Positions 1,396 to 24,668 of a stretch of 40,943 nt of DNA are shown piece after piece. This DNA is from Syntrophomonadaceae bacterium (GTDB lineage: Bacteria; Bacillota; Syntrophomonadia; Syntrophomonadales; Syntrophomonadaceae). The position numbers and the translations under genes were made by a program. The stretch spans positions 1 through 40,943 of the forward strand of contig JAAYCK010000015.1 of NCBI GenBank assembly GCA_012729835.1, read 5' to 3'. The notes under the pieces are model-generated. The model was not told the DNA's origin and ran no database searches. It saw nothing but the letters and a program-made list of their open reading frames with translations. Positions within the stretch are counted from its first letter, which is position 1. Each line of letters opens with the position of its first letter.

Positions 1396-3513
1396 ATGAG
1401 TGCCCATCATACTCAATCTATTCCAATAGAAGAGCCTTCGAATAAGCTAGAATATGCACTTGAGCAATGCCAAAAAGCGGCAAGACATGGGTATGAAATT
1501 GCCGAAGCTCATCTTATGGAATCAGCTATGGCAATAAGTGTTATGTCTAATTCCTTGTTAGATTGTCTTAATGCCATAGAATTAAACCCTATTAGAACAC
1601 CGGGTATCGTTGATCAACTGAAGAATCAACTTACTGGCGTAATATACGAATTAGAGCAACTGCAGCGCAATACTGAACTAGATTTAGAAGAAAGAATTCG
1701 TCGGTTAGATCGTTTTTCCATAACGTTGTTTGGTCGTACAATGGCTGGCAAATCTACATTAATGGAAATCCTAACTCGAGGCGATGGATCATCTATTGGG
1801 AAAGGTGCTCAGCGTACAACTCGAGATGTTCGATCTTATGATTGGAAGGGCATGGAAATTACAGATGTCCCAGGCATTGCAGCGTTTGAAGGAAATGACG
1901 ATGAAGAATTGGCTTATAAATCTGCTTCACAGGCAGATTTAATATTATTTCTTATTACTGACGATGCCCCTCAACCAGTTGAGGCAGAGTGTTTAGCCAA
2001 TATACTGAGAATTGGCAAACCCGTTCTAGGTATATGTAATATTAAGGCAGCCGTAGATGTGTCCGATGACTTAGATATATTTCTTCGGAATCCTAACCGT
2101 TATTTTGACCCGATCAGAATCAAACAATTAATAAATCAGTTTAATATATTTACACATGAATACATACCCGGAAATCGGATTCCTTTTGTTGCTGCTCACC
2201 TGAGATCACGTTTTCTCGCTAATCAGACTCAAGATCCTGGTTTAAAAGAAAAGCTAGAAAAGGCCAGCAGGTTCTCTGATATTGAAGACTACATAATAAG
2301 GGATATTATCGGAAGAGGAACATTTCTTCGCACAAAGAGTTTCATAGATGGGGCTTTGCTTCCAGTATTAAATCTTACTGATATGCTCCTTGATTTCAGC
2401 TCCCAAAATTCAGCCAGTGGCCGTGTTTTAGTTGGCAAACGTCGCCAATTCTATACTTGGGCAAACGAATTTAAAATTGACGGTGAACAACGAATATACA
2501 CGCTTGTTTCTAAAATATGTAATAATCTTAGAGATGATATCCCCGTATTTGCTGAAGATCATTTCGGTGATAAAAAAGCCGGAGAAAAGTGGACTAGTCA
2601 TATAAAATCTTCTGGCATTAATGATAAAATTAACAACTTACAAAAAGCCCTTATAGAAGACTGTAGAATAGCTCTAATTGAAATAACACGTGAATTAAAG
2701 ACTGAGTTGTCTCTTGTCAGTGAATTCACGGATGCTCGAAATATTAAGACAGATAGCATTTTTGATACTAAACGCGCCTGGAACTGGAGTGTTAACTTTG
2801 TTACAGGCGGACTCACTTTAGCGGCTATAATTCTTGGGAGCGGTCCTCTTGGTTGGGCCGCTGCAGGGGTCGGTATTCTAGGGTGGGCCGTTTCATTATT
2901 ATTTGATAGTCGAGAAGCAAAAACTCAGCGAGCACGACATAAGCTTATAGATCAATTAAAGGCCAGTGTTGATCGAATTGAAATAGATTTACGGACTCGG
3001 CTCATTGATTGGTTTCACAAAGAATTATTCAATAAACTAATATATATATTCCTCAACGACCTAAAAACAGTTACTTCAGGATTATTTGAATTAGCGGATG
3101 CCCAAAGAGTGTTATCATGGACCTTAACTCGTAGACAAAAAGATCTTAATAGAATTTTAATCAAGGAAGCATTCATTAATTTGGGAGCTATCGACGAACT
3201 CAACTATATTCAGGATGTTGCGCGTATTCCGGGTATTGCTACAATGCTTATGATAAAACCTGATGTAAGATTTCCCGGCCCTATCCGTGTTGAGATTGAA
3301 CGACTACTGGGAGAACCACTATGGTTTGTTATTAATAATGAAAATGAAAAATCTATTCTTTCACAGGCTATCGGGCGGGGATGTTCAAAAGAAAAAATCA
3401 ATATTGAATGGGATTTGCGGGTTGTACATGTTCCCATGGATGAATTTGATCTATTAACAAAATCAAGGATAAAATTAGCACAACAACTTACAGAACTACA
3501 CATAGTAAAATGA
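1396..3513 (+). CDS. Dynamin-like GTPase, first of a pair, with central membrane hairpin
   Basis: The 705-residue protein has a G1 P-loop GRTMAGKST at residues 113-121, a TT pair in the G2 position, and G3 DVPG at 157-160. The G4 position (CNIKA near 214) lacks the usual NKxD pattern. Residues about 466-505 are strongly hydrophobic (GGLTLAAIILGSGPLGWAA and on), consistent with a membrane-inserting hairpin, and helical regions flank it. Bacterial dynamin-like proteins use GTP to remodel or seal membranes, and some protect against phage. The ribosome binding site (AGAGGA, about 12 bases before ATG) is spaced rather far. The partner GTPase starts 13 bp after the stop, so the two are probably co-translated. 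A generic GTPase of the same superfamily is the main alternative. Confidence 0.75.
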   Translation: MSAHHTQSIPIEEPSNKLEYALEQCQKAARHGYEIAEAHLMESAMAISVMSNSLLDCLNAIELNPIRTPGIVDQLKNQLTGVIYELEQLQRNTELDLEERIRRLDRFSITLFGRTMAGKSTLMEILTRGDGSSIGKGAQRTTRDVRSYDWKGMEITDVPGIAAFEGNDDEELAYKSASQADLILFLITDDAPQPVEAECLANILRIGKPVLGICNIKAAVDVSDDLDIFLRNPNRYFDPIRIKQLINQFNIFTHEYIPGNRIPFVAAHLRSRFLANQTQDPGLKEKLEKASRFSDIEDYIIRDIIGRGTFLRTKSFIDGALLPVLNLTDMLLDFSSQNSASGRVLVGKRRQFYTWANEFKIDGEQRIYTLVSKICNNLRDDIPVFAEDHFGDKKAGEKWTSHIKSSGINDKINNLQKALIEDCRIALIEITRELKTELSLVSEFTDARNIKTDSIFDTKRAWNWSVNFVTGGLTLAAIILGSGPLGWAAAGVGILGWAVSLLFDSREAKTQRARHKLIDQLKASVDRIEIDLRTRLIDWFHKELFNKLIYIFLNDLKTVTSGLFELADAQRVLSWTLTRRQKDLNRILIKEAFINLGAIDELNYIQDVARIPGIATMLMIKPDVRFPGPIRVEIERLLGEPLWFVINNENEKSILSQAIGRGCSKEKINIEWDLRVVHVPMDEFDLLTKSRIKLAQQLTELHIVK

Positions 3514-3526
3514 AAGGATGATAACC

Positions 3527-5248
3527 ATGGAAATACCTGAGTTTAATATTCTTAATTGGGCAACGGTTGGAAATGCCTTATTAGATAAAGCGAGAAATAT
3601 CCTCATTAATGCTCACAGCGATCAACTCCGTCTTTTAACTGGTAGAATTCCTTCATCCATTGTGCCTCCTGACGAGGCTATAGAAGTGGTTTTTGCAGGT
3701 CAATACGGTGCAGGAAAATCAACCATCCTAAAACAATTGACTGGAAGAGATGATATATCAGTGGGAGCCGGTATTAGTACACAACTTGCTCATAGATACG
3801 ATTGGAATGGAATTAAAGTTACCGATACTCCTGGTATTCACACTAAAATCCGCCCTGACCATGACGAAGTTTCATATCGTGCTATAGCAGAAGCAGACTT
3901 ACTTGTTTTTGTTATTACTAACGAACTTTTTGATTCAGAATTGGCTCAGCATTTTCGAAAACTTGCTATTGAGCGAGACAAGGCGCATGAGATGATGCTA
4001 GTGGTTAACAAGATGCGCCGTTGCTCTAATGGTAATAGTCCAGAAGCCCAAGAAACCATTAGAGAAGACCTCAGAAGGGTCCTTCTTCCGTTTTCTCCAG
4101 AAGATCTACGTACATCTTTTATTGATGCAGAGGCAGCAATCGATAGTATGTCCGAAAGTGATGAGCATATTAGGGTGGCCCTATGGAAAAAAAGCGGTTT
4201 TGAATACTTTGTAGAAAATTTAAATGACTTTGTTCGTTCCAAAGGCTTAACTGGCCGTTACACAACAGCACTTTATTCTCTTGAGCAAGTTCTCCAGGAA
4301 GCACTTGCACAAGAATCAACCGGCGATGCTGATATTGATTCACTTGAAGAGTTATTACTTCAACGACGCAGAGCTATTCTTGAAACCCAGGAGCGAATTC
4401 CAAGGGCTGCAGCGAATGAAATTCAAAAAATTAGTTCGAAAATACGCGAAGAGGGGCGAAGAGCTTCTGAACTTATTCATGGTTCTGCTGACCAAGAGGC
4501 CGTGAATAGAGAAATACAGGCAGCTCAAAACCGTGTCCAACAATACTCAGAAGAACTTAGCAAATCGGTTCAAAATGTCATTGGAACCCAAATTGCGAAT
4601 CTTGATGAACGTCTGGGAGAAATATTAGACAGTGAATTAGCCAAAGAATTAATTCCTCGATTAATTCATCGTATTGAAGACCAAGATATTTCTCTAGAAG
4701 CCATTTCAAATATGAAAACAATATCCAACATTGCTAGTCAGCTAGGGACCTTTCTTATTAAGAACTCTTTCAAAGCAGAATCCGGCACTTTGGCGGGATT
4801 ATCGAAACTCAGTGAATATTCAGGAACCCCAATACATAAAGCTGTTCTTGAAGTAGGTCATTTCTTCGGTAAGTCCTTTAAACCCTGGGAAGCCGTTAAA
4901 TGGACTCGTGGGATAGCCCATGCTGGACGTGTTTTAGCTGTAGCTGGAACGGTATTAACATTCGTTTTGCAAATAAAAGACGATTGCGATGCTACTCAGT
5001 TGGAAAATGATCTTCGTGAAAATAGGTCTACAATAAGAAATGGATTTAATGATGCAGCACATGTTATCGAAATGCATTATGAAGAGGCAACGAAGGCATA
5101 TGTAGCAAGTATTTTGACTACTGACCTCGAACTTATAGATCAACAACTTGAAGAAATTAGGAACATGCAACAACAAAGAAGCAATACATATAACAATCTG
5201 ATTTCCTTGCTGAAAGAAACTAGGGAACTCATATCAATGTTACATTAA
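3527..5248 (+). CDS. Dynamin-like GTPase, second of a pair
   Basis: This 573-residue GTPase has G1 GQYGAGKST at residues 58-66, ST in the G2 position, G3 DTPG at 100-103, and G4 NKMR at 161-164 (the usual Asp replaced). A long helical, probably coiled-coil region follows (about 260-370). A short hydrophobic stretch lies near residue 470 (GRVLAVAGTVLTFVLQI). The ATG at 3527 is preferred over the in-frame ATG at 3518, because AAAGGATG sits 6 bases before 3527 but touches 3518. It lies 13 bp behind the first GTPase. Paired dynamin-like proteins often form hetero-oligomers on membranes, which is a reasonable inference here. Confidence 0.75.
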   Translation: MEIPEFNILNWATVGNALLDKARNILINAHSDQLRLLTGRIPSSIVPPDEAIEVVFAGQYGAGKSTILKQLTGRDDISVGAGISTQLAHRYDWNGIKVTDTPGIHTKIRPDHDEVSYRAIAEADLLVFVITNELFDSELAQHFRKLAIERDKAHEMMLVVNKMRRCSNGNSPEAQETIREDLRRVLLPFSPEDLRTSFIDAEAAIDSMSESDEHIRVALWKKSGFEYFVENLNDFVRSKGLTGRYTTALYSLEQVLQEALAQESTGDADIDSLEELLLQRRRAILETQERIPRAAANEIQKISSKIREEGRRASELIHGSADQEAVNREIQAAQNRVQQYSEELSKSVQNVIGTQIANLDERLGEILDSELAKELIPRLIHRIEDQDISLEAISNMKTISNIASQLGTFLIKNSFKAESGTLAGLSKLSEYSGTPIHKAVLEVGHFFGKSFKPWEAVKWTRGIAHAGRVLAVAGTVLTFVLQIKDDCDATQLENDLRENRSTIRNGFNDAAHVIEMHYEEATKAYVASILTTDLELIDQQLEEIRNMQQQRSNTYNNLISLLKETRELISMLH

Positions 5249-5275
5249 ACATGATCTATCATTAACCGTACCCCA

Positions 5276-6112
5276 AAGCCCGCTCCATGCACAGGCTCCG
5301 GGCTTCCCTAGCGGCGCTCACCCGCGTGCGCTGCGCGATTACATACGCGGATGTTCGCGGCCCTGCGCCTGAGCCTTCCGCTCGGTGGCCGAGGGATACC
5401 CTGTCCGTCCTTGAAGAACTGAAGGGCCGTACAGCGTATCCCCGCACCTATCTGGTCGTATGGTCTGGCAGACAACCCGCCGCCCGGCTCTCTCCGGGGC
5501 AGCCGCCCCTCCAGGCCGGTTTACATTGCGCTGCGCGCCCAGCCTTCCGGGATAACATGCGCCTGTCCTTCCGTTCGCCCGGCTGATCTGGGTGGTTTCC
5601 CCGCAGGCCTGGCTCAATCGCCGCCCGTCCTCCCGCTGGTCGGACCGGCTGGCTGGGTGACCTGATCAATCCTTCATCCCTAAAAGAATCCTTACTCTCC
5701 CGCTTCGCGCCGGGGTTATTACAGTCCTCGCCGGACAAGCATTCCAGTCTTGCCAGACAGTCTATTCTTTGCTCGCCGCACGGCATCCCTGCTCCCGGTT
5801 CCTCCTCCGTCGTCACCCGGCTACTGGATATCATTACAGTGACCGGCTCCCTGCCGGTCGCCCGTCACGGCGGGCAGCTGATGAAGTGAAGTCTCGGCCC
5901 TGGCTCCGCTGCGCTGCGGCTTGGACAGGTCCTGTCACGGGGGTTGGCCTTATCCCTTGGCGATGGCATACCGGGGATGAACAGTAGTTTCTCTCCGCCA
6001 TCGCTTAACCATGATACCACCCCCGCGCCACCCGTCCAGGCTGGCCTCCCCTTCCCTGTTCATGCCCGCTTTGGGGGTTTGGGGGTATCCGGCTCCGGTT
6101 CCCAGGGATAGG
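5276..6112 (-). ncRNA. Long GC-rich structured non-coding element, copy A
   Basis: No convincing protein is encoded here on either strand. Read leftward from 6112, the sequence aligns in order with copy B (7625 onward): a nested stem beginning ATCCCTGGG, then GGTGGC and CCCCGGTA blocks, CCTGTCC, GCCGGGTGACGA, GAGGAACCGGG, GTCTGGCAAGAC, CCGGCGAGGACTGTAAT, and later GGGCGAACGGAAGGACAGGC. A stem of 8 perfect pairs joins 5997-6004 to 5960-5967. Two small hairpins lie at 5747-5758 and 5724-5736. A closing stem AAGCCCG/CGGGCTT (5299-5305 with 5276-5282) marks the far end. The base changes relative to copy B keep the pairing. The leftward strand is purine-rich with repeated GGAGCG. I infer a large structured RNA of unknown family. 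Confidence 0.5.
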
Positions 6113-6185
6113 TTTTCCATTTGAGCGCGAATGAATGGCGGTCACGTTATTGGCCGCCGATATTGAAATTATGTGGTTGGACGCA

Positions 6186-6205
6186 GGGCAGCCGGTCGGC
6201 TGCCC
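6186..6205. terminator. Strong hairpin after the three-gene cassette
   Basis: GGGCAGCC and GGCTGCCC form an 8-bp perfect stem with a 4-base loop, 12 bases beyond the stop codon of the leftward gene at 6217. There is no T-tract, so it may be a weak or Rho-assisted terminator, or a boundary or processing hairpin between the cassette and element A. Confidence 0.4.
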
Positions 6206-6216
6206 CGATACTGTAA

Positions 6217-6498
6217 TCAGTCCTCCATACCCAGAGCCAGGTAGCTCTCATAAGACAGGTCGTTATAGAATACGGTCATATTTCTACCGATATTAAACCA
6301 GTGGTAGCCATTACGACTGACCGGTACCACCGGCTGATTCACCGCTTCGCCCAGGATACGGGCCGCTTGCAGTGCAGCCGGGGTAAATTCCAGGTAAGGG
6401 TTCCGGCTGGTATGAAAATTAATATCGATAGTAGGGATCAGGCCTAACTCGTTCTCCAGGGTCTCTCTTAACTGGTTCAGGGCTTCGTTAATGCTCAT
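6217..6498 (-). CDS. Hypothetical protein, last gene of the GC-rich cassette
   Basis: The protein has 93 residues and I do not recognise a family. It is soluble and mildly acidic, with an N-terminal helix (NEALNQLRETLENELG) followed by alternating short strands (TIDINFHTS, VVPVSRNGYHWFNIG). The composition looks like a genuine small alpha/beta protein. A GGAGAGGAAAGT ribosome binding site precedes the ATG. It is the third gene transcribed from the promoter at 7451-7479, 47 bp after the 122-residue gene. Its codons are GC-rich like its neighbours and unlike the AT-rich genes either side of the island. Confidence 0.65.
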   Translation of the reverse strand: MSINEALNQLRETLENELGLIPTIDINFHTSRNPYLEFTPAALQAARILGEAVNQPVVPVSRNGYHWFNIGRNMTVFYNDLSYESYLALGMED

Positions 6499-6545
6499 AC
6501 TTTCCTCTCCTCTCTAACTGTGGGGTAAGACAACCGGCAGTTCAA

Positions 6546-6914
6546 TTACAACAGGCCTTCATCCCGGCGGCGATGGTACTCCATATCGGCAGCATCGTCA
6601 TCGTACATCCAGGCTGGACCACTGCGCTTCGCCCTCCGGGCCTCCGGTTCTGGATCCCAGTCGTAAAACTCGCCGATCAGTTCGTCCGGATCCATGCAGT
6701 AGTCCAGAAGTTCCTCCAGCAGATCCGTAAGGTAATCCAGCAGGTAGTCCCTCACCTGGCCGCGCAGTCCGGTTATGGCCCCCTGGTCAGCTTCCCATCG
6801 GCAGCAGCACCGGTTATAGCTGGCCAGTTCAATATAGCCTCCAGCCAGGGTGTCCTCTAACCGGCTGCGTACCGCCTTCTGCAGTTCAGAGCGGTTAAGG
6901 ATATGGTGTACCAT
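6546..6914 (-). CDS. Hypothetical acidic protein, middle gene of the cassette
   Basis: The protein has 122 residues and no family is recognised. It is strongly acidic, with a central helical run (RDYLLDYLTDLLEELLDYC) and a charged tail (WDPEPEARRAKRSG, then MYDDDAADMEYHRRRDEG). Three consecutive cysteines (NRCCCRW near residue 36) are unusual. GGGGAGGAATAG precedes the ATG at good spacing. It lies 36 bp after the HIRAN-like gene and is almost certainly in the same transcript. Acidic small proteins of this kind are common on phages and plasmids, but nothing in the sequence fixes its role. Confidence 0.6.
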   Translation of the reverse strand: MVHHILNRSELQKAVRSRLEDTLAGGYIELASYNRCCCRWEADQGAITGLRGQVRDYLLDYLTDLLEELLDYCMDPDELIGEFYDWDPEPEARRAKRSGPAWMYDDDAADMEYHRRRDEGLL

Positions 6915-6950
6915 TACTATTCCTCCCCTCTATGGTCCAGGGCGGGCGGC

Positions 6951-7403
6951 TTACGCCACCCCGGCCACCTGGTAGGCAAAATTCACGCCGTAATTACGGA
7001 AATGCTCTCCTCCCGGTCCCCCGGTGATCTCCACGTCCAGCACGTCTACCCTGATCCCGGCATCCATTAGCGGGGCTACCCGGTCGGCCCGGTCGCGGGA
7101 GAGATACCCGACATGGCAGGTATGACCGGAAGCCGGGTGGACCAGCACCACTGCTACCGCCAGGGGATCGGCCTGGTTCCCCGGCTCCCGCTCCAGTCGG
7201 GCAGTAATTCCATTAAGCCCTCTACGGGCCAGCTTCTTCAGGATCTCCTGCCGACCGTCGAAGCTGACTCCCCGGGCCTTGGTGTACTCCGGGTCCTGTG
7301 ACCGGACCAGGTTCCAGGCTACAGTCAGGGCTGCCGACCGGGAGAGTTCTGCCTGGTAGTACAGCCGGTTAGCCATCTGAAACAACATCTGCCGGTTAAA
7401 CAA
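6951..7403 (-). CDS. HIRAN-like domain protein, first gene of the cassette
   Basis: The start is taken as TTG at 7403, because AAGGAGG lies about 10 bases upstream; the next in-frame ATG would lack a site. The C-terminal two thirds match the pattern of a HIRAN domain: GITARLEREPGNQADPLAVAV, then HVGYLSRDRADRVAPLMDAG, then a closing strand. HIRAN domains bind DNA ends or single-stranded DNA and occur in helicases such as HLTF and in stand-alone phage or plasmid proteins. The N-terminal helical part (RSAALTVAWNLVRSQ) precedes a conserved-looking GVSFDGRQEILKKL segment. It is first in the leftward cassette, directly behind a well-formed promoter. The HIRAN call is by pattern and is fairly likely. 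Confidence 0.6.
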   Translation of the reverse strand: MFNRQMLFQMANRLYYQAELSRSAALTVAWNLVRSQDPEYTKARGVSFDGRQEILKKLARRGLNGITARLEREPGNQADPLAVAVVLVHPASGHTCHVGYLSRDRADRVAPLMDAGIRVDVLDVEITGGPGGEHFRNYGVNFAYQVAGVA

Positions 7404-7423
7404 TCAAACCGCCTCCTTGTCGT

Positions 7424-7479
7424 GTTGCTTGTTGCAACCTTATATAATATATTATAGTTGCTTTATGCAACAACGGCAA
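7424..7479 (-). promoter_or_regulatory. Sigma-A promoter with two inverted-repeat operators for the cassette
   Basis: On the minus strand, TTGCCG (7474-7479) and TATAAT (7451-7456) are separated by exactly 17 bases. The spacer holds an inverted repeat GTTGC-N5-GCAAC (7457-7471). A second copy of the same GTTGC-N5-GCAAC repeat lies downstream of the -10 at 7424-7438. Their centres are 33 bp apart, close to three helical turns. This is the expected layout for a repressor binding two operators. No regulator gene is adjacent, so one of the cassette proteins or a distant protein would have to bind. Confidence 0.7.
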
Positions 7480-7624
7480 CCTTTCAAAGCCCACTATACC
7501 CGTTATTTATGACGTTTTTGCCTCAATTCACGCACGTAATCCTGCAGTTTAAACCCAGTTTTTGTATGGCATTAGCAGTGAATAAAGCCCAATGTTCCGG
7601 ACTTCCTGCCTCCGAAACACGCTC

Positions 7625-8410
7625 CTCATCCCTGGGTACCAGAGCCGGGTAGCCCCAAAAGGCGCATGATAAGGCACGGGGCCGGCCGCCTGGATAGGTG
7701 GCAGCGGGGTGGTACAATCGGAAGGGCGGCGGGAGACCAATAAACCCTATCCCCGGTACACCGTCGCCACAGGCCGGGGACAGCCCCGCTGACGGAACCT
7801 GTCCAGGCCGGAGGGAGCGAGGTACGAGCAACCGGAGCCAAGCCGGACCCATGCCTACCTCAGCTGCGCACGTGCCGCGGCAGCGGCACTGTGATCCAGG
7901 GGCAGTGTGCTGACGGAGGAGGCACTCTGTCACTGGCGTTCTCCTATTCCTGCCGGGTGACGAAGTATGAGGAACCGGGCAGGAATGCCTGTCCGGCGAG
8001 GACTATAATATGCCCGTCTGGCAAGACTGTAATGCCGGCCGGCGAGGACTGTAATCAGGCTGGCTGACCGGAGGGAAACCTGCCTGTCCTCTGGTCGGGT
8101 AACGGGTCGCCCGGGATATAAAACGACCGGTTACCTGACGTTTACCGGGGTCTGCCGGAGAGGGTACCGAATCTATAATTACCACTATATAGCCGGCCTG
8201 ACCGGAGGAAAGGCGGGCGGGGTTAAGGGGGCTGCTCCTTTTGGCGGATCCAGCATCTTAGCCGGGTGAACGCAAGGCCAGGCACTCGTAATCCCGGAGG
8301 ACCGGCTGCGTCAGCGCTTGTAATCCGGTCCGCAGGGGTGCCTGGGCCGGAGTGAACCGGGCGGCGGATTTCCACCTGGATAGCCGGTCTGAGTGTGCGA
8401 AGACGGGCGG
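7625..8410 (+). ncRNA. Long GC-rich structured non-coding element, copy B
   Basis: This is the inverted counterpart of copy A, read rightward. It starts with a nested stem (7628-7631 with 7647-7650, enclosing CTGG/CCAG at 7632-7635 and 7639-7642). The stem at 7725-7732/7761-7768 corresponds to the 8-bp stem of copy A with one full pair swap. Three tandem hairpin units end in TATAAT or TGTAAT (7991-8003, 8016-8027, 8037-8049), where copy A has two. Homology resumes near 8194 (AGCCGGCCTGACCGGAGG) and continues past GTGAACGCAAGGCCAGGC to about 8400. Short open frames on both strands are arginine- and proline-rich and are not conserved between the copies. The extent and boundaries are approximate. 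Confidence 0.5.
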
Positions 8411-8779
8411 CGGGACATGTTGCCGGGAGCGGAGCCGGCCGGGCGTAGTTTCTGGAGTGGAATGGAGCGGACCGTAGCGATAGCGAAGGTTTAGAGGAAT
8501 GCAACGGAAGAACGGAGGCCGGCCGGCGGAGCGGCCTGAGCCCCTTCCTGCCCCCCTATAACCGGGGCGAGGCCGACGGGGTGCGAGGGGGGCGGGAAGC
8601 CCCCTCCGGGGACAACGATGCGCTCTAGCGAGCGCCATTTGGGTCGGGGTTTGGGGATGGGCAGGGGGGTGAAGCAGGGGAGGGGGAGGCTGTGGCGGAC
8701 CAGGCAGGAAAAGGTAATGCTATGACGAATAAATGGTTTAAATGCTAATGCCTGTATGGCGGCAATAGGGGTGAAACCA
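8411..8779 (+). other. GC-rich, gene-free tail of element B
   Basis: No protein is credible here. The rightward strand stays purine-rich (GGAGCGGAGCCGG, GGAATGGAGCGGACC). Two obvious hairpins are present: a GC stem near 8585-8607 built on GGGGGGC and GCCCCCT, and GCGCTC-TAGC-GAGCGC at about 8620-8635. A run GGGTCGGGGTTTGGGG near 8641 has a partner, TTTGGGGGTTTGGGGG, near 6070 at the edge of element A. It leads into the ribosome binding site of the gene at 8780. Confidence 0.45.
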
Positions 8780-9349
8780 ATGGATAGTTTTATAAGCCTG
8801 AAAACCTGGGGCGGGCAGAGTTCTTTTTCTTATTCCAAGTCGGATTTATTGGGCATCACTATTAAGTTTGGCGATGGGTTTACAGCGAAAATTACGATGG
8901 AGGAGTATGTGGCTTTGATTCAGCATTTTCAAGGTCAGACTGTAAATATCGGTACATCTCGTACTGACCGGCCCCCGGGCAGTGTTGGTGAGTGGTTGCA
9001 TATTTATGTTTCCCGCGCGGCTATAGCTTCTTACCTGGGGGCTATCCTGGTTTACGAGGGCCATGCCGAAAAACTGGCCAGGGGTTTAATTAAATTCAGG
9101 CAAATACCCTATGCCGGGATTTGGAGCCAGTATCTGGGTAGGGCTAAGGATTATATGGAATATGATCAATGGATTAGGTTCCGTAGTGAGCTGATTGACA
9201 ACGGTGCTTTTAATAACTGGGGAACGCTGGACAATGTGCCGGAAAAATGGCGAGAGCTTCTCCTCCATTTATGGTACCAGTTGAAAAAATCCGAGTATTG
9301 GCTGGAAGGCAGGTTTGAGTTTCTGGCACCGGGCGGACCGGAGCGGTAG
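8780..9349 (+). CDS. Hypothetical protein downstream of element B
   Basis: The 189-residue protein has no family I recognise. The ATG at 8780 is chosen over the in-frame ATG at 8756 because AGGGGTG ends 6 bases before it. The first 95 residues look beta-rich (SFISLKTWGGQSSFSYSKSD, then ITIKFGDGFTAKITMEEYVAL). The second half is helical and rich in Trp and Tyr (WSQYLGRAKDYMEYDQW, WRELLLHLWYQLKKSEYW). There are no membrane segments. It is the only gene read in the direction of element B and may be expressed from it. The GC content is intermediate between the island and its surroundings. Confidence 0.65.
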   Translation: MDSFISLKTWGGQSSFSYSKSDLLGITIKFGDGFTAKITMEEYVALIQHFQGQTVNIGTSRTDRPPGSVGEWLHIYVSRAAIASYLGAILVYEGHAEKLARGLIKFRQIPYAGIWSQYLGRAKDYMEYDQWIRFRSELIDNGAFNNWGTLDNVPEKWRELLLHLWYQLKKSEYWLEGRFEFLAPGGPER

Positions 9350-9576
9350 CGGAGATCCGGCTGGTAATCTCCTGCTCAGTCCACTAGCCTATGTCGGGGA
9401 GCTTTCCTGACCGAAGGGAGCGAGTAACGTCGAGCGGCAGAAGCGCAGCGAATAAAGCGAGACGAATGGAGCGACCGGAGCCAGGAGGGCGGGCGGCCAC
9501 CGAGCCGGAGGCGGGCTTTGGTGAATTTAATGGCTAATATTATCTTTTTCGCATAAAGCTAGTCAAATAAACATCT
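9350..9576 (+). other. Gene-free stretch with a degraded fragment related to the island elements
   Basis: A hairpin GGAGAT/ATCTCC lies just after the stop of the previous gene. From about 9408 to 9527 the rightward strand carries motifs also seen in elements A and B: CCTGACCGAAGGGAGCGAG, CGACCGGAGCCAGGAGGGC, and an end CGGGCTTTGG that matches the end of copy A. After about 9535 the sequence turns abruptly AT-rich. I read this as a third, partial or decayed element copy marking the right edge of the GC-rich island. Confidence 0.35.
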
Positions 9577-9742: not shown

Positions 9743-9764
9743 TTTTATAAAAGGATTATTGCAA

Positions 9765-11585
9765 ATGCTAATTAATAGTAATAATAGCACCTTAGAACTT
9801 AGAAAAGTCAATACTGAGTTAATATTTTTTTACCAAAGGTGGCAAGAACTCCTGGGGGCTCGCACTCTCGATATGTACCAGTATAACATACTTAATGCTT
9901 GTTTAGCTTGTTTGGAATTGCAGGAAGTAATCGACAAAACTCTATCAGGGCTCCTCACTTCTCGTCATAATGTAGATGATATAAAAGCTGAAGCTCGTCA
10001 AATAATCCTTAATGATGACATTTTACCCAAATACGACAAGCCATTATGGATAACTCTAAAAAGAATTTTGGATATTAAGCTTGGAAAAAAGAAATCCGAT
10101 GATGAATCTACAGATAATGATAATTTCAGGATAAGTCTTCAACGGTTAAAGTATCAGTTAACTAATCCATGTAATCTTTTGAAAAGGAATTATAAGAGCT
10201 ATCTAATACAAGAATTAAGAGAAGATATAGCACAACAAAACTGCTCCAAAATGGAAATACATATGTCTGCTTTGATAAGCCAATGCCTATATGAAGGCTG
10301 GTCAACCACCGGCCTCTTTAATCTTTCTAATTATCTTCATGGAGATGGAACGGCGGATGATAAGATAAATGTGTTATTTGAGAGGATTCTATCAACTGAT
10401 ACTATTGATTTTATAGTCTACCACAGCATTAATATTGAAACACGACGTGGATTGAACTCAGAAGCAGTTCGGCAGACAATTATAAGTTTGGGTATTGATT
10501 TAAAAAAAGGTTCAGAAATAATTGAAGCTGAATCTATAGAAGATGCCGTCCGCAACTTACTATATTCAGAAAAACATTATGCAATTATTTCAGTGAATGC
10601 ATATGATCTGCATTCAGCAGTTTTATATGCAATAAATACTATACAGAGAAAGTTAAGCATAGCAACTTTCTATAATATAATTAGCCCTTTTATCGCTAAT
10701 ACACCAACTATTGTCGCTTTTGATACATCAACCAATACAGCAATACCTCTAAAGCTAACAGACGTTTTTAGAACCTACGATCATGTAGATAGTTCAAACA
10801 ACGTATTCGAAGATACCAAGAATTTATTTAACAATAGTGATAATAACCTGAGCACAATAGTTCGCCTAAGTGCGGCTTTTTCATATACTAATTTAAGTAG
10901 AACTTCCTATTTCCAAGAAACAAAGTTTATATCACTATGGATTGCACTTGAATCTATTATGAGAACCGGCCAATACTCAGATATTATATCTCACATAAAA
11001 CAACCCCTACCTCCGGCTCTATGTGTTCGGTATTTCTATAAAATAATCAGGAATTTTGCAGAGGACTGTATTAGGTGCCGAGTCAAATACTTAACAGCAC
11101 CGATAGAACTTGATCTACAGGACGAGAACAAAAAACAAGTTGTAACCCGACTTATTTCTATTTTTAGAGATTCAGCAGAATATCAGTTGTTATTGCAGCG
11201 TTGTGAAGTAAACAATTTACTTCATTATCGTTGTGAGCAAATCCATGATATTATCACAGATTCTACTGAAATGAAGAATAAGCTTGAACATTATAAAACT
11301 AAGATTGAATGGCATATTCAAAGACTATATAGAATTCGAAATGAAATAACCCATTCGGCTTTTAAGAACGATCGGTCGCTGGTTATCTACATTGAACATT
11401 TGTATTTTTATTTATCTCAACTCATTTCTGAGATCGTATTCTATTTTGAACATAAAGAGGCTACGTCAATAGAAGATGTTTATGCTACTTTAGAAAACAA
11501 CTACTTAACTCTTATTGAATTATTAGGTAATAACACAATGGCAATAACGGATATACTTCCTGATGGTGTTATTAACGTGATTTAG
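9765..11585 (+). CDS. HEPN-domain protein (Apea-like), probable RNase-type defence effector
   Basis: The protein has 606 residues. The ATG at 9765 is preferred over a TTG two codons earlier because AAAAGG then has better spacing. The C-terminal third looks like an Apea-type HEPN domain: FISLWIALESIMRTG near residue 388, and RNEITH at 525-530, which fits the RNxxxH (Rx4H) catalytic motif of HEPN ribonucleases. The N-terminal 380 residues are helical and unrecognised. HEPN proteins commonly cleave RNA in toxin and anti-phage systems; that role is inferred from the motif and the neighbourhood. It stands alone, convergent with the NurA/HerA operon, between the GC-rich island and the large restriction locus. 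Confidence 0.65.
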   Translation: MLINSNNSTLELRKVNTELIFFYQRWQELLGARTLDMYQYNILNACLACLELQEVIDKTLSGLLTSRHNVDDIKAEARQIILNDDILPKYDKPLWITLKRILDIKLGKKKSDDESTDNDNFRISLQRLKYQLTNPCNLLKRNYKSYLIQELREDIAQQNCSKMEIHMSALISQCLYEGWSTTGLFNLSNYLHGDGTADDKINVLFERILSTDTIDFIVYHSINIETRRGLNSEAVRQTIISLGIDLKKGSEIIEAESIEDAVRNLLYSEKHYAIISVNAYDLHSAVLYAINTIQRKLSIATFYNIISPFIANTPTIVAFDTSTNTAIPLKLTDVFRTYDHVDSSNNVFEDTKNLFNNSDNNLSTIVRLSAAFSYTNLSRTSYFQETKFISLWIALESIMRTGQYSDIISHIKQPLPPALCVRYFYKIIRNFAEDCIRCRVKYLTAPIELDLQDENKKQVVTRLISIFRDSAEYQLLLQRCEVNNLLHYRCEQIHDIITDSTEMKNKLEHYKTKIEWHIQRLYRIRNEITHSAFKNDRSLVIYIEHLYFYLSQLISEIVFYFEHKEATSIEDVYATLENNYLTLIELLGNNTMAITDILPDGVINVI

Positions 11586-11680: not shown

Positions 11681-13021
11681 CTACCCCATCTGCTTCTTTG
11701 CAAACTGCTCTAATAGCACCATACTAGGATGCTGTGAGAGAGACACCAGTTTATTAACCAAAGCTACGGGGATTAATGCATCATCATACATATCACACTT
11801 CAGCCTGGCCACATTGGCCAGGATAGTATCAAAGTTGGGAAAGTCAGCCCAGGAGGGGCTGCCAGTAAGCCGCGTTGTCGGCAGGGTCAATACATAGAGC
11901 TTGTCTTCCCCCGTGCGATATATGACCTTATTTCCATAGTAAGTAGTACGGCCATAAGGACTACCCGGATCAGCCGTACCCGGAATAATATATTTATAGA
12001 TATAGTCATTATCCAGAATGAGCGTTTGGCCTGGCCCCAGCTTACTTTTTACATCGTGGGCATGGTCAACAAAGGCTCCTGATTTCTCGATTCCTACCAT
12101 ATTTATGTATGGAGTTTCTCCTCCTTTTTGGGCCAGGAATGCTACCAATTCACGCATAGGCTTATGAATATTGGCAGTTTGGCCAAAGAAGGCGAGCGGC
12201 CCATCTTTGATAAAAAGAATGGACTTCAGTAGTTCAGGCTTCATATCCCAGATAGTCTTGATAAGGTGCACCATAAGGATTTGCTCCAAGAGTCCCATGG
12301 TATAGCCTACCACCCCACCGGCACCTTGTTCATCATCAATAACCTCATGGAGACGAAAGATATCAGTTAAATAGATGCGTTTTCCGCAATCGGGACAGTT
12401 AAACTGATCACCCATGCTATCTTTTATCTCTATATTACGGGCCTCACAGGAAGGACAACTGGCTAGATTCCAGGTGGTTTTTAGTTTCCCGCCCTTGTAT
12501 TGCTGGAAAATAAGCCATCGCAGGGCCTCTATAAAAGGCTTTTCCCCGTCTTGGCTCTGACTGAAGAATTCAAATAATGCTAAACGAACAGAATTAGTAA
12601 GCGTATTTCCGCCCAGGGAGATATTCTTGATAGGTAGGACAAAGGGAAAACGTTGGATATTCTTAAGTCGAGCAATATCTGTAGGATCAATGAAGGGAAC
12701 TGTTTTTAAATTTTCCAAGTCAGAAACACGAAACATCAAGGCACCAACATTAAAAAAGGTGATGGTACTGGAGGGGAATTCCTTTTGTACCACAGCTTCT
12801 CCATAACCACCATCGATAGCAATAATTATCTCAATAGGATTCTTCTCCGGGATCTGCACATCTACCAGGTTGACCGGGAGCATCTCTACTTCTCCACAAC
12901 GGGGGGGCAAACTACAACGTTCCAGGAAGGTATTAATTGCTGGTTGATTAATGATTGTAATATGTCCACCCTTACTGGCATATTCAGCCGGACGGCGATT
13001 ATTACGACTCATGTAGCCCAT
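11681..13021 (-). CDS. NurA-like nuclease with zinc ribbon
   Basis: This 446-residue protein has the NurA layout: AIDGGYGE near residue 68 (Asp70 as metal ligand), a central insertion, and FIKDGPLAFFGQ near 270 (second acidic metal site), followed by a KSG segment. An inserted CPSC/CPDC pair (residues 189-192 and 209-212) forms a likely zinc ribbon, which plain archaeal NurA lacks. NurA nucleases work with HerA hexamers to resect DNA ends. Here the HerA-like gene ends 5 bp upstream, and a CAGGAGGG site precedes the start. It is the last gene of the leftward cluster. No clear terminator is visible in the 95 bp to the convergent HEPN gene. Confidence 0.75.
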   Translation of the reverse strand: MGYMSRNNRRPAEYASKGGHITIINQPAINTFLERCSLPPRCGEVEMLPVNLVDVQIPEKNPIEIIIAIDGGYGEAVVQKEFPSSTITFFNVGALMFRVSDLENLKTVPFIDPTDIARLKNIQRFPFVLPIKNISLGGNTLTNSVRLALFEFFSQSQDGEKPFIEALRWLIFQQYKGGKLKTTWNLASCPSCEARNIEIKDSMGDQFNCPDCGKRIYLTDIFRLHEVIDDEQGAGGVVGYTMGLLEQILMVHLIKTIWDMKPELLKSILFIKDGPLAFFGQTANIHKPMRELVAFLAQKGGETPYINMVGIEKSGAFVDHAHDVKSKLGPGQTLILDNDYIYKYIIPGTADPGSPYGRTTYYGNKVIYRTGEDKLYVLTLPTTRLTGSPSWADFPNFDTILANVARLKCDMYDDALIPVALVNKLVSLSQHPSMVLLEQFAKKQMG

Positions 13022-13026
13022 ACTAA

Positions 13027-15051
13027 TTAACCCTCCTGATTACCCGGCTGACTCACAGCAAAACGATCAATCTGGACCGGCACCACATAGGGGTTGGAAT
13101 AGGTCTTCATGCGCACAAAACCTTTATCAGAATCGGCACTGAAACGTGTAAGCCCGTCCGTAAAATCCCGGAAGTCATAGTATTTTTTTAGCTCCCGCAG
13201 TTCATCGTCATTATTTAAGTGAGCCACGAACCAGTTCTGAGTATTCTTCAGAATATTGCTGCTGATAGAACTTACTTCCTGGGTAGCATATATAAGTCCC
13301 AGATTAAGCTTGGCTCCTTCCTTGGCTATACGGTTATAAACCTGAGAGAGGTCTTTATCATCTTTCTTAGGGAATAGGTTGTGGGCTTCCTCGAAGTAGA
13401 ACTGAATGAAGTTATTGGGACTAGTATTGATAAATCGGTTCATGCTATCCTGAAAAATACGCTTACAGATACGTTCTGAATATAGTCGTTGCACTTCAGG
13501 ATCACCCTGCGACAAGTCTACTATTATAATCTTTCCGTCTCGAAGCATCTCTACTATTTCTTCTGCAAAGGGCTTGTCTACAGTACTAGTGTGGAGACTA
13601 ATCAATGGACGTAGCTTACGATATCCACTAATAGTAGCTGCACGATTCTGACCCGAGCGGCTCTTGCGGGTAAGAAAGACCAGTATATTCTTAAGATCTT
13701 CATCCGCCCATTCCCTGTTCTTTTTCTTGCGGTAATCTTCAAAGATCTTATGATCATCGTAGTTCTCCCAAACCCAGGTGAACCAGGCGATGGCATCCTC
13801 GAATTTAATGCCTTTGGTAGGATTAATAGGATTGTCTGGGTTTACAGCTGAGTTTATTTCCGCTTGACCGGTAAATTTAATCGTCTTTTGCTGCGTATCA
13901 AAGCTGGCTGCATAGAGGCAGCACTGGTAGGCAGCTACTCGGCGTTCATAACGGACTCGGGCCGAATCATCGGTAGGGTCCTCTGGCGGGGTCAAATCAA
14001 TAGCACAGAAGCTCTTTACATAATCACTGGTATCATTAGCCTCCAAGTGGGAGCGGATGAGATCAAAACCCGCCAACACATCTTGATAGAAATTTACTTT
14101 CATTACCTTGAATCCGGGTTTTTCAATAACACTGTAACGAGTAACATCTTTAGCATACATCTCAAAAATAGCAGTACCAGCATCCTGGAGGTTGGCATTG
14201 GCATATTCACCGTTTATATCGAATATTATCTGACCTACCGGGAACTTGGGTCCTCCCCCTTCGGTAAATGGATCGAGATATTCCTCCACTCCCGTTTTGG
14301 CAGTGAGAGCAGCCGGAGCAGTGGCACTAAGATCAGCGGTAGCCTGAATTACTTTTTTAACCGTATTGGATTTTCCCGTACGAGTCATACCAAAAAGGGC
14401 AGTCCGCTTTCCTAAGAAATCAACGGAAGAAACGTATACCGGGACCTCATCCTTCTCTTTCTCCTGGAAACGGCGGCTGGAGCTGTAGCGTACACGACCG
14501 ATTTTAATATCGGTCTTTTGTCCAGTCATACGGTTACCATCACGGAAGTTGGCAATTTTCTCTAATACCCGGCCACTAGCTTTATAAACACTATAATTAT
14601 GGGAACTGTAGAAGTTCTCAACGTCAGCTCCGAAGCGAGTTTTAGTATCTATGTCTCTATAAAAAGTACCCAGGATGCGGCATTCTAACCCTGAGAAACC
14701 GAACTCATAGCGGGTGAAGTCGTCCAGTTGGGTCTGTGCCCCTGCGGTCTTGAGATCATCCTTATAATATTCAATCATGGCTCGGACTACGTCGTCATCG
14801 GTGGGGAGCTTGGCAGGACAGAGGGCTCGTAGGAGCAGGGCTTCTTCCACTTCCTCCTCGTTTTCATAGAATGCCAGGAGAAAAGCGCCTTGAGGTATAC
14901 CTCCTACCCGGTTCTTCCAGGAGTCGGCCACTAAAAGATATGCCTTTTCATAATCCAGGTAGAAGGGACGCCCTATAAAAAGCTCCTGCTTCTTACCTTC
15001 ACCAAAAACATCAACATCCACCAGGCTGATAAGGTGATCGGTCAGGGTCAT
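13027..15051 (-). CDS. HerA-like ATPase (DUF87 family)
   Basis: The 674-residue protein has Walker A GMTRTGKSN at 221-229, Walker B FYFEEAHNLFP near 570, and the sensor segment GLIYATQEVSSIS typical of HerA/FtsK-type translocases. The N-terminal 200 residues would form the HAS-barrel region. It is somewhat longer than archaeal HerA (about 500), with an insertion after Walker A. It starts inside the last codons of the methyltransferase gene (4-bp overlap, GGGAGGT site) and is followed by NurA after 5 bp. A HerA-NurA complex would pump and degrade DNA. Beside a methyltransferase it may be the cleavage arm of a restriction system. Confidence 0.8.
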   Translation of the reverse strand: MTLTDHLISLVDVDVFGEGKKQELFIGRPFYLDYEKAYLLVADSWKNRVGGIPQGAFLLAFYENEEEVEEALLLRALCPAKLPTDDDVVRAMIEYYKDDLKTAGAQTQLDDFTRYEFGFSGLECRILGTFYRDIDTKTRFGADVENFYSSHNYSVYKASGRVLEKIANFRDGNRMTGQKTDIKIGRVRYSSSRRFQEKEKDEVPVYVSSVDFLGKRTALFGMTRTGKSNTVKKVIQATADLSATAPAALTAKTGVEEYLDPFTEGGGPKFPVGQIIFDINGEYANANLQDAGTAIFEMYAKDVTRYSVIEKPGFKVMKVNFYQDVLAGFDLIRSHLEANDTSDYVKSFCAIDLTPPEDPTDDSARVRYERRVAAYQCCLYAASFDTQQKTIKFTGQAEINSAVNPDNPINPTKGIKFEDAIAWFTWVWENYDDHKIFEDYRKKKNREWADEDLKNILVFLTRKSRSGQNRAATISGYRKLRPLISLHTSTVDKPFAEEIVEMLRDGKIIIVDLSQGDPEVQRLYSERICKRIFQDSMNRFINTSPNNFIQFYFEEAHNLFPKKDDKDLSQVYNRIAKEGAKLNLGLIYATQEVSSISSNILKNTQNWFVAHLNNDDELRELKKYYDFRDFTDGLTRFSADSDKGFVRMKTYSNPYVVPVQIDRFAVSQPGNQEG

Positions 15052-16067
15052 TCTTTTTTACCTCCCTTAATACGTTTACGTTTATCTGTATGAAGGTCCA
15101 GGTCAGTAAACCTGAGCCTTGATTGTTTAACGTAATCTTCCCGAGCTTCAATACTGACCCATTGCCGTCCGTTTAGCTCTGCACAATATCCTGTAGTATT
15201 AGATCCTGCAAACGGATCCAACACAAGATCTCCAGGATCAGTAAGAAAATTAATAAAAAAGCTCGCCAGTTCCGGTGCCATGCGAGCCGGATGTGGTAAT
15301 ATATCTTGTTCCCGACAGGCGCGGTGATAATGGTCAGCTGAATTTGTATTAGAAATGCTGAATGCGTTGCTAGGTAAGCGCGGATCCTTGGTGGGATCTA
15401 TTGATTCGATCTCCAGAGCATTAGGCATTATACTTCCACCATGGTTAATCAAAAACGATGATTCACTTATATTATGACCGGATGGCCGTTTACCCGCATT
15501 ATACTGTTGTGTATCATGAAGATGCTCCATACTCTTACTATATGGTCTTAACACCTTGCGATTATCGGCTTTGGGTCGATCGCTCTTGGCCATCCACCAA
15601 ATATGAGTATAACTGTCGGTAACCCGGCAACGCTCGATGTTGACCCACTGAGCTGGTGAAGGCAAGCGAGCTGGATTATGGCAGATGAATTCCTGACACA
15701 GCTTAAGGCCTGCCTCCTGGTTTTCCACAAACGCCAACAAAGTCTTCATCGGCAGCAATGATTGTACCGGGCTACCTTTCTCCCAGGCGTTGCCCAGTTC
15801 CATAACTATAGAACCATCCGGGGTGAGCAAGCGGGCAAATAGCGGGGCAAAGCCAGCTAACCATTCTATGTATTCCTGCCCCTGAAGATTCCCGTATTGT
15901 TTCTTTTGATTAAGCGGAAATGGGGGCGAGGTCAGTATTAACTGAACCTGACCACTATACTTTCTCTTTAGAGTAGTGCTAAGAACATCCTCAGCATTAG
16001 CATTATAGCAACACCCTAAACGGGTATAATACTTGGGATAATTCCGTTTTCGTCTCTCCTCAATCAA
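15048..16067 (-). CDS. Beta-class DNA methyltransferase, probably N4-cytosine type
   Basis: The 339-residue protein has TSPPF near residue 47 (motif IV) and DPFAGSNTTG near 290 (motif I), so the motif order is IV, then target region, then I, which defines the beta class. Ser-Pro-Pro rather than Asp-Pro-Pro favours N4-cytosine over N6-adenine. The start is TTG at 16067, with AGGAGA 7 bases upstream. It overlaps HerA by 4 bp, so it heads a methyltransferase-HerA-NurA unit, after a 213-bp gap from the DUF262 genes. It probably marks host DNA so that HerA-NurA spares it. Confidence 0.8.
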   Translation of the reverse strand: MIEERRKRNYPKYYTRLGCCYNANAEDVLSTTLKRKYSGQVQLILTSPPFPLNQKKQYGNLQGQEYIEWLAGFAPLFARLLTPDGSIVMELGNAWEKGSPVQSLLPMKTLLAFVENQEAGLKLCQEFICHNPARLPSPAQWVNIERCRVTDSYTHIWWMAKSDRPKADNRKVLRPYSKSMEHLHDTQQYNAGKRPSGHNISESSFLINHGGSIMPNALEIESIDPTKDPRLPSNAFSISNTNSADHYHRACREQDILPHPARMAPELASFFINFLTDPGDLVLDPFAGSNTTGYCAELNGRQWVSIEAREDYVKQSRLRFTDLDLHTDKRKRIKGGKKE

Positions 16068-16280
16068 AACTATTCTCCTATCTGAGACTATGCTTTATTA
16101 AATTGAATATCATCCAATGTTATGAATGATTTAAACTAGGTCGATTGTTTAAAACTATCAGCCAAATAATATTGATCCGTAACAAGAATTAAAATTCCCA
16201 AAACAGTATCGACAAAAGCTTTCGATTTAAGCAACTATTCGCTCTCAATTCCAATCTATCCTGGAATCAATAGTGACAAG

Positions 16281-18311
16281 TCAGGCTATCGATTGGAGAT
16301 ATGCTGCCGTTTCAGCTATCGGGTCATCTGTTTTCGTCTCCAACACTACAATACCCGTTGCATCCTTGATTATGAACTTCCCTTTTTTGAACTGCACTTT
16401 GCATCCTTTGGTGAATAAATAGCGTTCTGCCCATGTACCCATGTCTCCAAGAAGACTCGCTTCAATACCCAACTGTGTTATCACAACGTGCAGCGTTGTA
16501 CAAAATACCTCGTAATTGTATCCGCTAGAGGATTTGTTAGGAATAATGAGCATTTCGTCGTCATTACGCAACCGTAAATGCGAGGCACTCATCCATGTGA
16601 ATAAGTTAGGGTACTTTATAAAACAATTTCGCCAGTCGTTTTTGGGAACGGTTGACTTGTTGATGATGCCTTCTAATTGGCTTCCAATGTTATCACTTAA
16701 ATTTAGTTCATCAAGAAGCTGCTTAACGATGGGACCGTGGTTTGCAAACAACCGTTTCAAACTCGGTGTGCTTGCCGCTTCGTTCGGGTCGTCAACGCAC
16801 AATGTTTTGTACGCTGCTACCCGCAGAGTATAGTCCCCGAATGTCAGCAATGCCCTTCGAAGTAGATGTCCGTGTTTAGGTTTTGCATCTTCAAATAGCG
16901 CGGATATTTTATCCCAGTACTGTTCAAAGGCTTTCAGGTCATAATTCCCGGTACTGTCCTTGGAATAGTATAGTGCAGAGCGTATTTGCCCGCTAAAATA
17001 GTGATGTTGCTCAGCATTGTAAATTGCCTTGGCAAAGTCATTACTCTGCAGAATTAATCGGGCCTTATTTTGTTCTTCCTCTATTTGTTCAGGAGAGAAC
17101 CCTGTCACGCTGCCATTTCCGGAGAAATATCCGAGCAAACTATCCCAATTATCCGCAAGTTTATTTATCCCATCAATGGCACGGCGATACAAATCCGATG
17201 TATCAATCTCAGAATTGAGGGCTAGATTTCGGATAATCCGAACCCATTGTGTTAATGAGCCATTATCAATGCCTTTCGCCAGATACATATAGGTGGTTAC
17301 AGCATGGAACAATACCCTATCTTGATATGTACGCCTTTCTATTAATGAGTTGAAGACAAGCTGAAATACCGCCTTGCAGTTTGGATTTTTGCTCAGGAAC
17401 TTCAGCGTATAAAACGCCGTTTCAAATACTTCAGCTTCAATCTTCTCATAATCAAGAGTGTTCGACCAATTAGTATCAGTCGAGCATATTTTCTTGTTCA
17501 TAAGGAGAACTCCGAAAAAGGTCAAGTAGGTCAGGTCAAAACTATCTTTACAATTTAACCAAAAAAGGTCAGTCCATTCACGATCAAAGTTTTGCTCAAA
17601 TTCATTTGTAAAAGGCAATTGAAGTTTTTGAAGTCTGCCTATCAGGCGCGCCTTGAAGTTTTCAAAGGGCGTGAGAGGCTTCCCTCTCGCATTGAGTTTA
17701 ATATATAAACTATCCTCCATCCCGAGGTCTTTCATTTTCAGGAATTTAAAAAAGATGGGCTCAAATTCCTCATCGGATAGACACTGAGCCAGGTTATCCA
17801 CATCGTCGAAGACAACCCTAATGTCATCAAGCATGGTAAGAGCGGATTGTATTGTCGGGTCATATTTCCAACCCGAAACGAACCACTCGGAGTCCTCAAT
17901 TTCTTTGGAAGGCTCCAGCGTAGACGTGAAAATAGCACCACGGTTCTCAGTCAGTTTTTCTAAAAAGTCGCGTGAACTCGTGCGCGTCTCATACGTGAAT
18001 CTATGCAGTAGCCTAGTTTTGGAGTCATCGTCGTAAAAAGCATACAGGTGCAGGAGAAAAAGTGTAGTCAGCCGTTGCTGCCCATCTATGGGTATAAATT
18101 TGTCGCCTTCTGCTTTGCCATACACGAAGTTTAGGTCAAGTGGCGGCGTTTTACGCAAGATAGCTGACCTCATGTCTTCCAAAAGGTTGGAGCGGACCAT
18201 TTTCGTATGGTCGTCCAGCCGGCCATGAGCATAGTCGCGCTGAACGATCGGTACTTCAACCATATAAGCATCAAGCAGTTCGAACAATGTATCAAGGGTA
18301 TTTTCGTTCAT
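16281..18311 (-). CDS. DUF262 domain protein (GmrS-like), no HNH domain seen
   Basis: This 676-residue protein begins with a DUF262/ParB-like fold: VPIVQRDYAHGR near residue 18 and FIPIDGQQRLTT near 75, the DGQQR motif being diagnostic. The rest is long and helical with no recognised HNH motif, unlike its partner. DUF262 proteins act as nucleotide-dependent subunits of GmrSD-type (type IV) modification-dependent restriction. It overlaps the DUF262/DUF1524 gene by 4 bp (ATGA) and has a GGGGAGG site, so the two are co-translated. Base composition appears lower in GC than the Res and Mod genes. Confidence 0.75.
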   Translation of the reverse strand: MNENTLDTLFELLDAYMVEVPIVQRDYAHGRLDDHTKMVRSNLLEDMRSAILRKTPPLDLNFVYGKAEGDKFIPIDGQQRLTTLFLLHLYAFYDDDSKTRLLHRFTYETRTSSRDFLEKLTENRGAIFTSTLEPSKEIEDSEWFVSGWKYDPTIQSALTMLDDIRVVFDDVDNLAQCLSDEEFEPIFFKFLKMKDLGMEDSLYIKLNARGKPLTPFENFKARLIGRLQKLQLPFTNEFEQNFDREWTDLFWLNCKDSFDLTYLTFFGVLLMNKKICSTDTNWSNTLDYEKIEAEVFETAFYTLKFLSKNPNCKAVFQLVFNSLIERRTYQDRVLFHAVTTYMYLAKGIDNGSLTQWVRIIRNLALNSEIDTSDLYRRAIDGINKLADNWDSLLGYFSGNGSVTGFSPEQIEEEQNKARLILQSNDFAKAIYNAEQHHYFSGQIRSALYYSKDSTGNYDLKAFEQYWDKISALFEDAKPKHGHLLRRALLTFGDYTLRVAAYKTLCVDDPNEAASTPSLKRLFANHGPIVKQLLDELNLSDNIGSQLEGIINKSTVPKNDWRNCFIKYPNLFTWMSASHLRLRNDDEMLIIPNKSSSGYNYEVFCTTLHVVITQLGIEASLLGDMGTWAERYLFTKGCKVQFKKGKFIIKDATGIVVLETKTDDPIAETAAYLQSIA

Positions 18312-19840: not shown

Positions 19841-19921
19841 ATACTCCCTCCCCAACAGCTGATGCTTGTGGTTGATTTTTAACTCTCAAGTACACTTATC
19901 TATATATCAATCAACAAAGCA

Positions 19922-19984: not shown

Positions 19985-20004
19985 ATAACCAATATAGCTT
20001 TAAT

Positions 20005-22638: not shown

Positions 22639-22640
22639 GA

Positions 22641-24641: not shown

Positions 24642-24668
24642 CTAAATTACCTCCACAACGAATCTGAT

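Follow-up and report, generated by a model that had tools for sequence, protein, structure and literature searches.

Folded, modular elements upstream of unrelated defence operons in Syntrophomonadaceae suggest a common RNA control region for bacterial immunity

Two GC-rich non-coding elements, A and B, lie in a 40,943-nt stretch of DNA from a Syntrophomonadaceae bacterium (GenBank assembly GCA_012729835.1, contig JAAYCK010000015.1, positions 1 to 40,943 of the forward strand; hereafter the window, i.e. the whole stretch analysed), and several described systems come close enough to be compared with them. Structured leaders are already known, and the elements resemble riboswitch- and attenuator-type cis-regulatory 5' leaders as candidates for a conserved folded non-coding RNA directly upstream of same-strand operons; they are, however, far longer (0.2-2 kb), modular, placed before functionally unrelated defence operons, and devoid of a recognised terminator, ligand domain or Rfam family. 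With 6S RNA, which is a stand-alone molecule and not the 5' part of a leader, they share a helix-bubble-helix layout, possibly a mimic of an open promoter, but they have no Rfam match to it, the layout is that of one domain within a long element, and the -35 and -10 consensus bases are present. Other long, GC-rich and highly structured bacterial non-coding RNA candidates are GOLLD, ROOL and OLE, the first two of which are frequently located in mobile DNA. Structures of GOLLD and ROOL have been described (PMC12286853), and the present elements differ from all three in having no Rfam match to them, in preceding defence operons and in being modular with no fixed overall architecture. In Frpo/ssi, a secondary structure bearing -35 and -10 boxes stands upstream of genes engaged in the contest with host defence (PMC11541004). 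The likeness extends to the fold, the two boxes and the host-defence setting, but our elements precede defence rather than anti-defence genes, are much longer, and no conjugation genes were seen with them. Among regulators of BREX and restriction-modification systems, BrxR is a repressor protein. RptR (PMC12255303) is a repressor protein controlling defence systems in common; control of this common kind would here be exerted by a folded nucleic acid element instead of a protein.

We reason that A and B belong to a modular structured non-coding family in Syntrophomonadaceae whose copies serve anti-phage defence operons as long leader RNAs, a reading to which we assign a probability of about one half, and which is the most economical one for the data. 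Each full copy would open with a folded 5' domain (type 1 or type 2) bearing a sigma-A-like promoter, continue with hairpin modules shuffled between copies, and be followed, with no terminator between, by a defence operon on the same strand; the fold may tune or condition expression of the operon (e.g., by keeping expression low until stationary phase, infection or a similar cue). Pointing at the end of a leoA-like gene, element A would be an orphan or relic copy. The position of folded elements before many unrelated defence operons suggests an RNA region through which bacterial immunity may be controlled in common.

A and B represent one element in two diverged copies, GC-rich (0.64) against about 40% GC in the surrounding region. 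The first-pass annotation had singled out a stem shared by the two copies, in which a T-A pair of A is C-G in B and an A-T pair is G-T, and had taken this as direct evidence for selection on RNA structure. The stem (P3) lies exactly where it had been placed (Table 1), with eight Watson-Crick pairs in A (minus strand) and eight pairs, one of them G-T, in B (plus strand), and both exchanges are correct when the copies are aligned by structure. Taken alone, A and B offer one double substitution that is register-dependent, as the structural alignment requires a 1-nt gap before P3 and a 2-nt insertion after it in A, while plain MAFFT/RNAalifold places A in a different register with two pairs broken. 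The register is resolved because the homologues G001, G041, G038 and G007 fit: G001 resembles A in its GCGATGG and shows T-G as an intermediate, A-T and T-G occur in G041, G038 is identical to B, and G007 keeps the pairing with an entirely different stem sequence. The covariation check proposed along with the claim was run on the collected homologues, and five of the eight P3 pairs show double changes over six sequences. The base-pairing is real, and P3 is the inner helix of a three-helix domain of about 125 nt. A nested stem reported at the start of the element is probably the outer helix P1, where the exchange is T-G in B and C-G in A (T-A/T-G had been read). Selection on secondary structure is well supported, by the six homologues and not by the two copies, but calling it direct evidence for RNA structure goes beyond the data, since covariation alone fits an RNA fold and a folded single DNA strand alike.

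The type-1 domain heads its GC-rich modular element. Its helices P1 and P2, of 11 pairs each, are separated by a conserved GG junction; next comes a bubble that starts with an invariant T-A---T, then P3 with 8 pairs and a further, short inner helix. A covariance model (R1) trained on B, G038, G041 and G001, with A and G007 left out, recovered A (E 3.3e-14) and brought in G007 as the sixth member. Across these six domains (in an alignment that was fitted to the model and somewhat favours structure) 89.7% of the cells are paired and 15 of the 33 pairs carry double-sided changes, against 5.0 +/- 1.7 after shuffling (0 of 500 shuffles reach 15) and 1-5 in a slid-register control; the covariation score is 0.430 vs 0.174, and P2 is the helix richest in double changes (8 of 11 pairs). 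The covariation of paired columns exceeds column composition, as is asked of a conserved structured RNA. Minimum free energy (MFE) folds of the single sequences B, A and G007 give the same helices (z -5.7 for G007; A and B in Table 1), and that of G001 alone gives the expected fold with no energy excess (z 0.03). No member was found in the nine other genomes of the order.

The search for homologues used sequence or model only and ignored genes; it located the family in a dozen or more genomes, about one in four of the Syntrophomonadaceae genomes searched, and a pattern search matched Syntrophomonas zehnderi OL-4 and other Syntrophomonadaceae. Other copies open with a type-2 domain, which has an outer and an inner helix (the outer one GGGCGGG/CCCGCC), a long hairpin and a TATNAT that stays unpaired after GCCGG; among 12 aligned domains, 11 of 28 pairs show double-sided change vs 6.1 shuffled (two antisense rows counted). 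Downstream of the 5' domains follow modules (a hairpin cluster with TRTAAT, module 2 and others) that are duplicated and shuffled among copies. For module 2, the most widespread of them, the RNAalifold structure missed the hairpin, and a hand-built structure fits better, though its excess at the level of pairs is modest (4 vs 2.9; by cells, 15 vs 5.4). The leader reading is supported by this covariation in type-1 domains, type-2 domains and module 2. The TRTAAT motif is counted 36 times on the forward and 8 times on the reverse strand over twelve elements, about 3 being expected; it comes after small hairpins whose loops read GGCGA or GGCA, with a spacing of about 23 nt and strong strand bias. 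A promoter reading for each TRTAAT hairpin unit was dropped (the units looked at have no -35 at proper spacing), as was a coding explanation (the elements have no apparent common reading frame, and copies differ through indels). Searches against Rfam, at the gathering threshold for the window and at permissive thresholds (E up to 5 and 2), returned only a tRNA and chance matches; no family fitted the elements, GOLLD, ROOL, OLE, 6S, introns and HEARO included. No account of such an element appeared in the literature searched, which covered few subscription papers.

For 17 copies it could be judged which gene the element reads towards; this next gene lies on the same strand in 13 and is convergent in four (A, G053:C181, the minus-strand copy of G053:C271, and G024). 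In 10 of the 13 the same-strand next gene is, directly or via a close homologue, a PADLOC defence gene at E <= 1e-30. The next genes are BrxA (G018; BrxA-B-C-PglX), BrxF (G002; BrxF-C-PglX), DrmD with type III restriction-modification (R-M) (G006), HEC-01A (G031; HEC-01A/B), HKD+Snf2 (G031, with a near-identical relative in G053 that was not scanned separately), a type II restriction endonuclease (G026), SIR2 followed by HerA (G041), PDC-M13A/B (G031:C67) and a type II R-M operon (G034). The last of these was found through the module-2 model after the defence prediction had been formed, and serves as a blind check; G024, from the same search, has no gene behind the element on its own strand. 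None of 10 control genes from the same loci and genomes reached E <= 1e-30 (best 9e-28, a helicase), these controls being few and hand-picked, and the pair of HKD+Snf2 loci lacking independence. In 11 of 12 cases no intrinsic terminator was found between element and gene. About 70 nt separate the end of element B from the same-strand gene that follows, and the 3' end of A adjoins the end (5248) of the convergent leoA-like gene, its own strand having no following gene. Most copies, though not element A, stand as cis-regulatory leaders do: on the same strand, directly upstream of an operon and free of a terminator.

Genes of no known defence family also stand directly behind elements (L116:827-2056, L036:9172-10557 and the 197-aa gene of the window) and are candidate defence genes. 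Close-lying element pairs are inverted and outward-pointing (window A/B, G031:C73 and G053:C271; L038, window, L117); between the paired elements lie a CBASS-like CD-NTase and 4TM effector in G031:C73, and an IetA-like gene in G053:C271.

Putative promoters, recognised as sequence matches, recur at fixed places. Of 12 type-2 domains, 10 have their best sigma-A-like site at a common structural position, in which the hairpin's 3' arm contains the -35 and the -10 is unpaired; one of the remaining two has TATAAC there. In four of six type-1 domains the best site is likewise at a shared position, where a -35-like hexamer falls within P1 and a -10-like TAnnnT runs from the top of P2 into the bubble. 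The spacing between -35 and -10 at the conserved place is 15-18 nt, and the sites of A and B are also listed by a general promoter scan. A sigma-H-like site (scanned with the consensus quoted in PMC8510167) lies 76-79 nt upstream of the domain start in four type-2 domains, with 5 matches in all vs 0.24 expected. Judged from sequence and predicted folds, the element likely acts as RNA. An RNA is favoured over a DNA fold because G-T mismatches outnumber A-C (38 vs 16, composed of 12 vs 7 and 26 vs 9), because G001 gives the structure as RNA but not as DNA (B, A and G007 give it in predicted DNA folds too), and because the sigma-H-like sites upstream of the four type-2 domains would transcribe the whole domain.

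Several observations weigh against the leader reading. P1 and P2 straddle the embedded sigma-A-like promoter, and if transcription starts there the 5' arms of the outer helices lie upstream of the start, so that neither helix could form in that RNA. Five copies (A, G053:C181, G053:C271 minus, G024 and G001) have no same-strand gene behind them, and in G007 a short, repeat-like copy is inserted into an IS21 istB gene. AT-rich spacers of 50-310 nt precede several downstream genes, which may have promoters of their own there. Whole-element fold energies are modest and not decisive (B forward z -3.6 vs reverse -1.9), that of A being z -0.9.

The strongest rival, which we consider unlikely but a serious contender, is a DNA repeat riding with defence islands: mobile hairpin-rich repeats, similar to miniature inverted-repeat transposable elements (MITE) or repetitive extragenic palindromes (REP), would multiply or recombine there, the fold being kept for transposition or recombination and the defence link arising from hitch-hiking or island exchange. 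The duplicated and shuffled modules, the existence of orphan copies, the inverted outward pairs at three loci, and the IS91 transposase and integrases nearby would all suit such a repeat, and so would the G007 copy (L097:1501-1632), which interrupts the IS21-like istB as a unit of about 170 nt bounded by an inverted repeat (GCGAAAAATTTGCCTG ... CAGGCAAAATTTTCGC), in the manner of small non-autonomous mobile elements. Terminal inverted repeats were not noticed in the other copies, which mostly precede genes. Against this rival, no transposase family was seen accompanying the elements, and a mobile repeat fails to predict the same-strand placement beside the first operon gene (13 same-strand, 4 convergent), the conserved promoter position or the sigma-H-like site at a fixed distance.

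We regard as still less probable a folded single-stranded DNA promoter (Frpo/ssi- or single-strand-origin-like), by which an island entering as single-stranded DNA would fold its domain, present the -35 as a duplex and the -10 in a bubble, and let RNA polymerase start at once. The geometry agrees with it, as the folded strand carries -35 and -10 at promoter spacing, placed in P1 and the bubble of type 1 and in the hairpin arm and the unpaired TATNAT between two helices of type 2, and Frpo itself is a known secondary-structure promoter before plasmid anti-defence genes (PMC11541004). The flanking genes examined (defence, insertion sequence and integrase genes), however, include no relaxase or transfer gene; plasmid and phage collections hold no match to the elements (and IMG/VR none to the hairpin-pair pattern); G001 has no DNA fold, G-T exceeds A-C among the mismatches, and the upstream sigma-H-like sites suggest ordinary transcription through the domain. 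That the 5' domain is a 6S-like RNA binding RNA polymerase holoenzyme seems improbable: the closing helix, large internal bubble and apical helix recall 6S open-promoter mimicry, with -10-like bases in the bubble, but no Rfam 6S match appeared even at permissive thresholds, and 6S does not form the 5' part of a leader. Chance similarity, whereby GC-rich spacers pair readily and the compensatory change is accidental, could appeal to the thin, register-dependent evidence of two sequences, but is hardly credible given the six-sequence covariation, the E-values of the homologue search and the slid-register control.

A wider idea may be put forward tentatively, namely that of a lineage-wide 'defence leader', in which one modular RNA family before unrelated immune systems would be a common switch, possibly reading RNA polymerase state or growth phase (through the sigma-A and sigma-H sites). 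Defence operons would then form a regulon governed by an exchangeable RNA module, and the sequence downstream of it could reveal new defence genes (e.g., the 197-aa gene of the window, and in G050 and G045 a 409-aa GTPase and a 461-aa protein, respectively). The control of costly defence operons, and the common control of operons with different origins, is a largely open field; a structured leader common to unrelated defence systems would be new, and an element before BREX, DrmD/type III R-M, SIR2-HerA, HEC-01, R-M and toxin-antitoxin-like operons would constitute a system-independent regulatory module. The idea is testable because a named isolate, Syntrophomonas zehnderi OL-4, has a copy, of type 2, before a BREX operon.

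Table 1. Coordinates of elements A and B, their parts and the adjoining genes in the window.
Feature	Position	Strand	Evidence
Element A, GC-rich modular non-coding, read leftwards	5270..6113	-	inverted-repeat and homology matches, GC profile, no Rfam match
Element B, GC-rich modular non-coding, read rightwards	7625..8690	+	homology, fold z, no terminator before gene
Type-1 5' domain of A (P1, P2, bubble, P3)	5917..6043	-	R1 match 83.6 bits, outside training set; MFE z -3.5
Type-1 5' domain of B	7686..7810	+	R1; MFE z -4.5
P3 of A, 5' arm GCGATGGC	5997..6004	-	
P3 of A, 3' arm GCCATCGC	5960..5967	-	
P3 of B, 5' arm GGCGGCGG	7725..7732	+	
P3 of B, 3' arm CCGTCGCC	7761..7768	+	
P1 of B, 5' arm	7688..7699	+	partner 7797-7808
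P2 of B, 5' arm	7702..7713	+	partner 7780-7791
Putative sigma-A-like promoter in B domain, TGGATA-16-TACAAT, TG before -10	7691..7718	+	sequence match
Putative sigma-A-like promoter in A domain, TGGACG-16-TATCAT, TG before -10	6011..6038	-	sequence match
Central hairpin cluster of A (GTCC-GGCGA-GGAC-TRTAAT units)	5714..5821	-	
Central hairpin cluster of B	7952..8059	+	
3' module 2 of A	5296..5383	-	
Further element fragment, ~250 nt upstream of ApeA-like gene	9397..9513	+	84% to G045
197-aa gene of unknown family directly downstream of B	8756..9349	+	candidate defence gene by position
ApeA-like gene	9759..11585	+	PADLOC E 3.5e-9, weak
LeoBC- and LeoA-like dynamin GTPase defence genes, left of element A	1396..5248	+	E 3e-94 and 7e-114

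Between A and B (6217-7403) lie three small minus-strand genes, encoding a HIRAN-domain protein (150 aa) and two proteins of unknown family, and preceded by a palindromic promoter region near 7440-7480; a search with the HIRAN-domain protein gave mostly matches within large proteins of other families, and no common locus. Farther right, the minus strand of 11681-27626 carries a defence-like island with NurA-like, HerA-like, DNA methylase, Orf5/SspE-like and UvrD-PDDEXK genes. In other genomes, several elements (L039, L042, L112 and L144) lie within a few kb of an argH-like (argininosuccinate lyase) gene, named from its sequence, possibly the mark of a site where defence genes are preferentially inserted. 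Two Syntrophomonas zehnderi contigs (L042 and L043) have 14,549 bp in common at 100% identity, either a large duplication or assembly redundancy.

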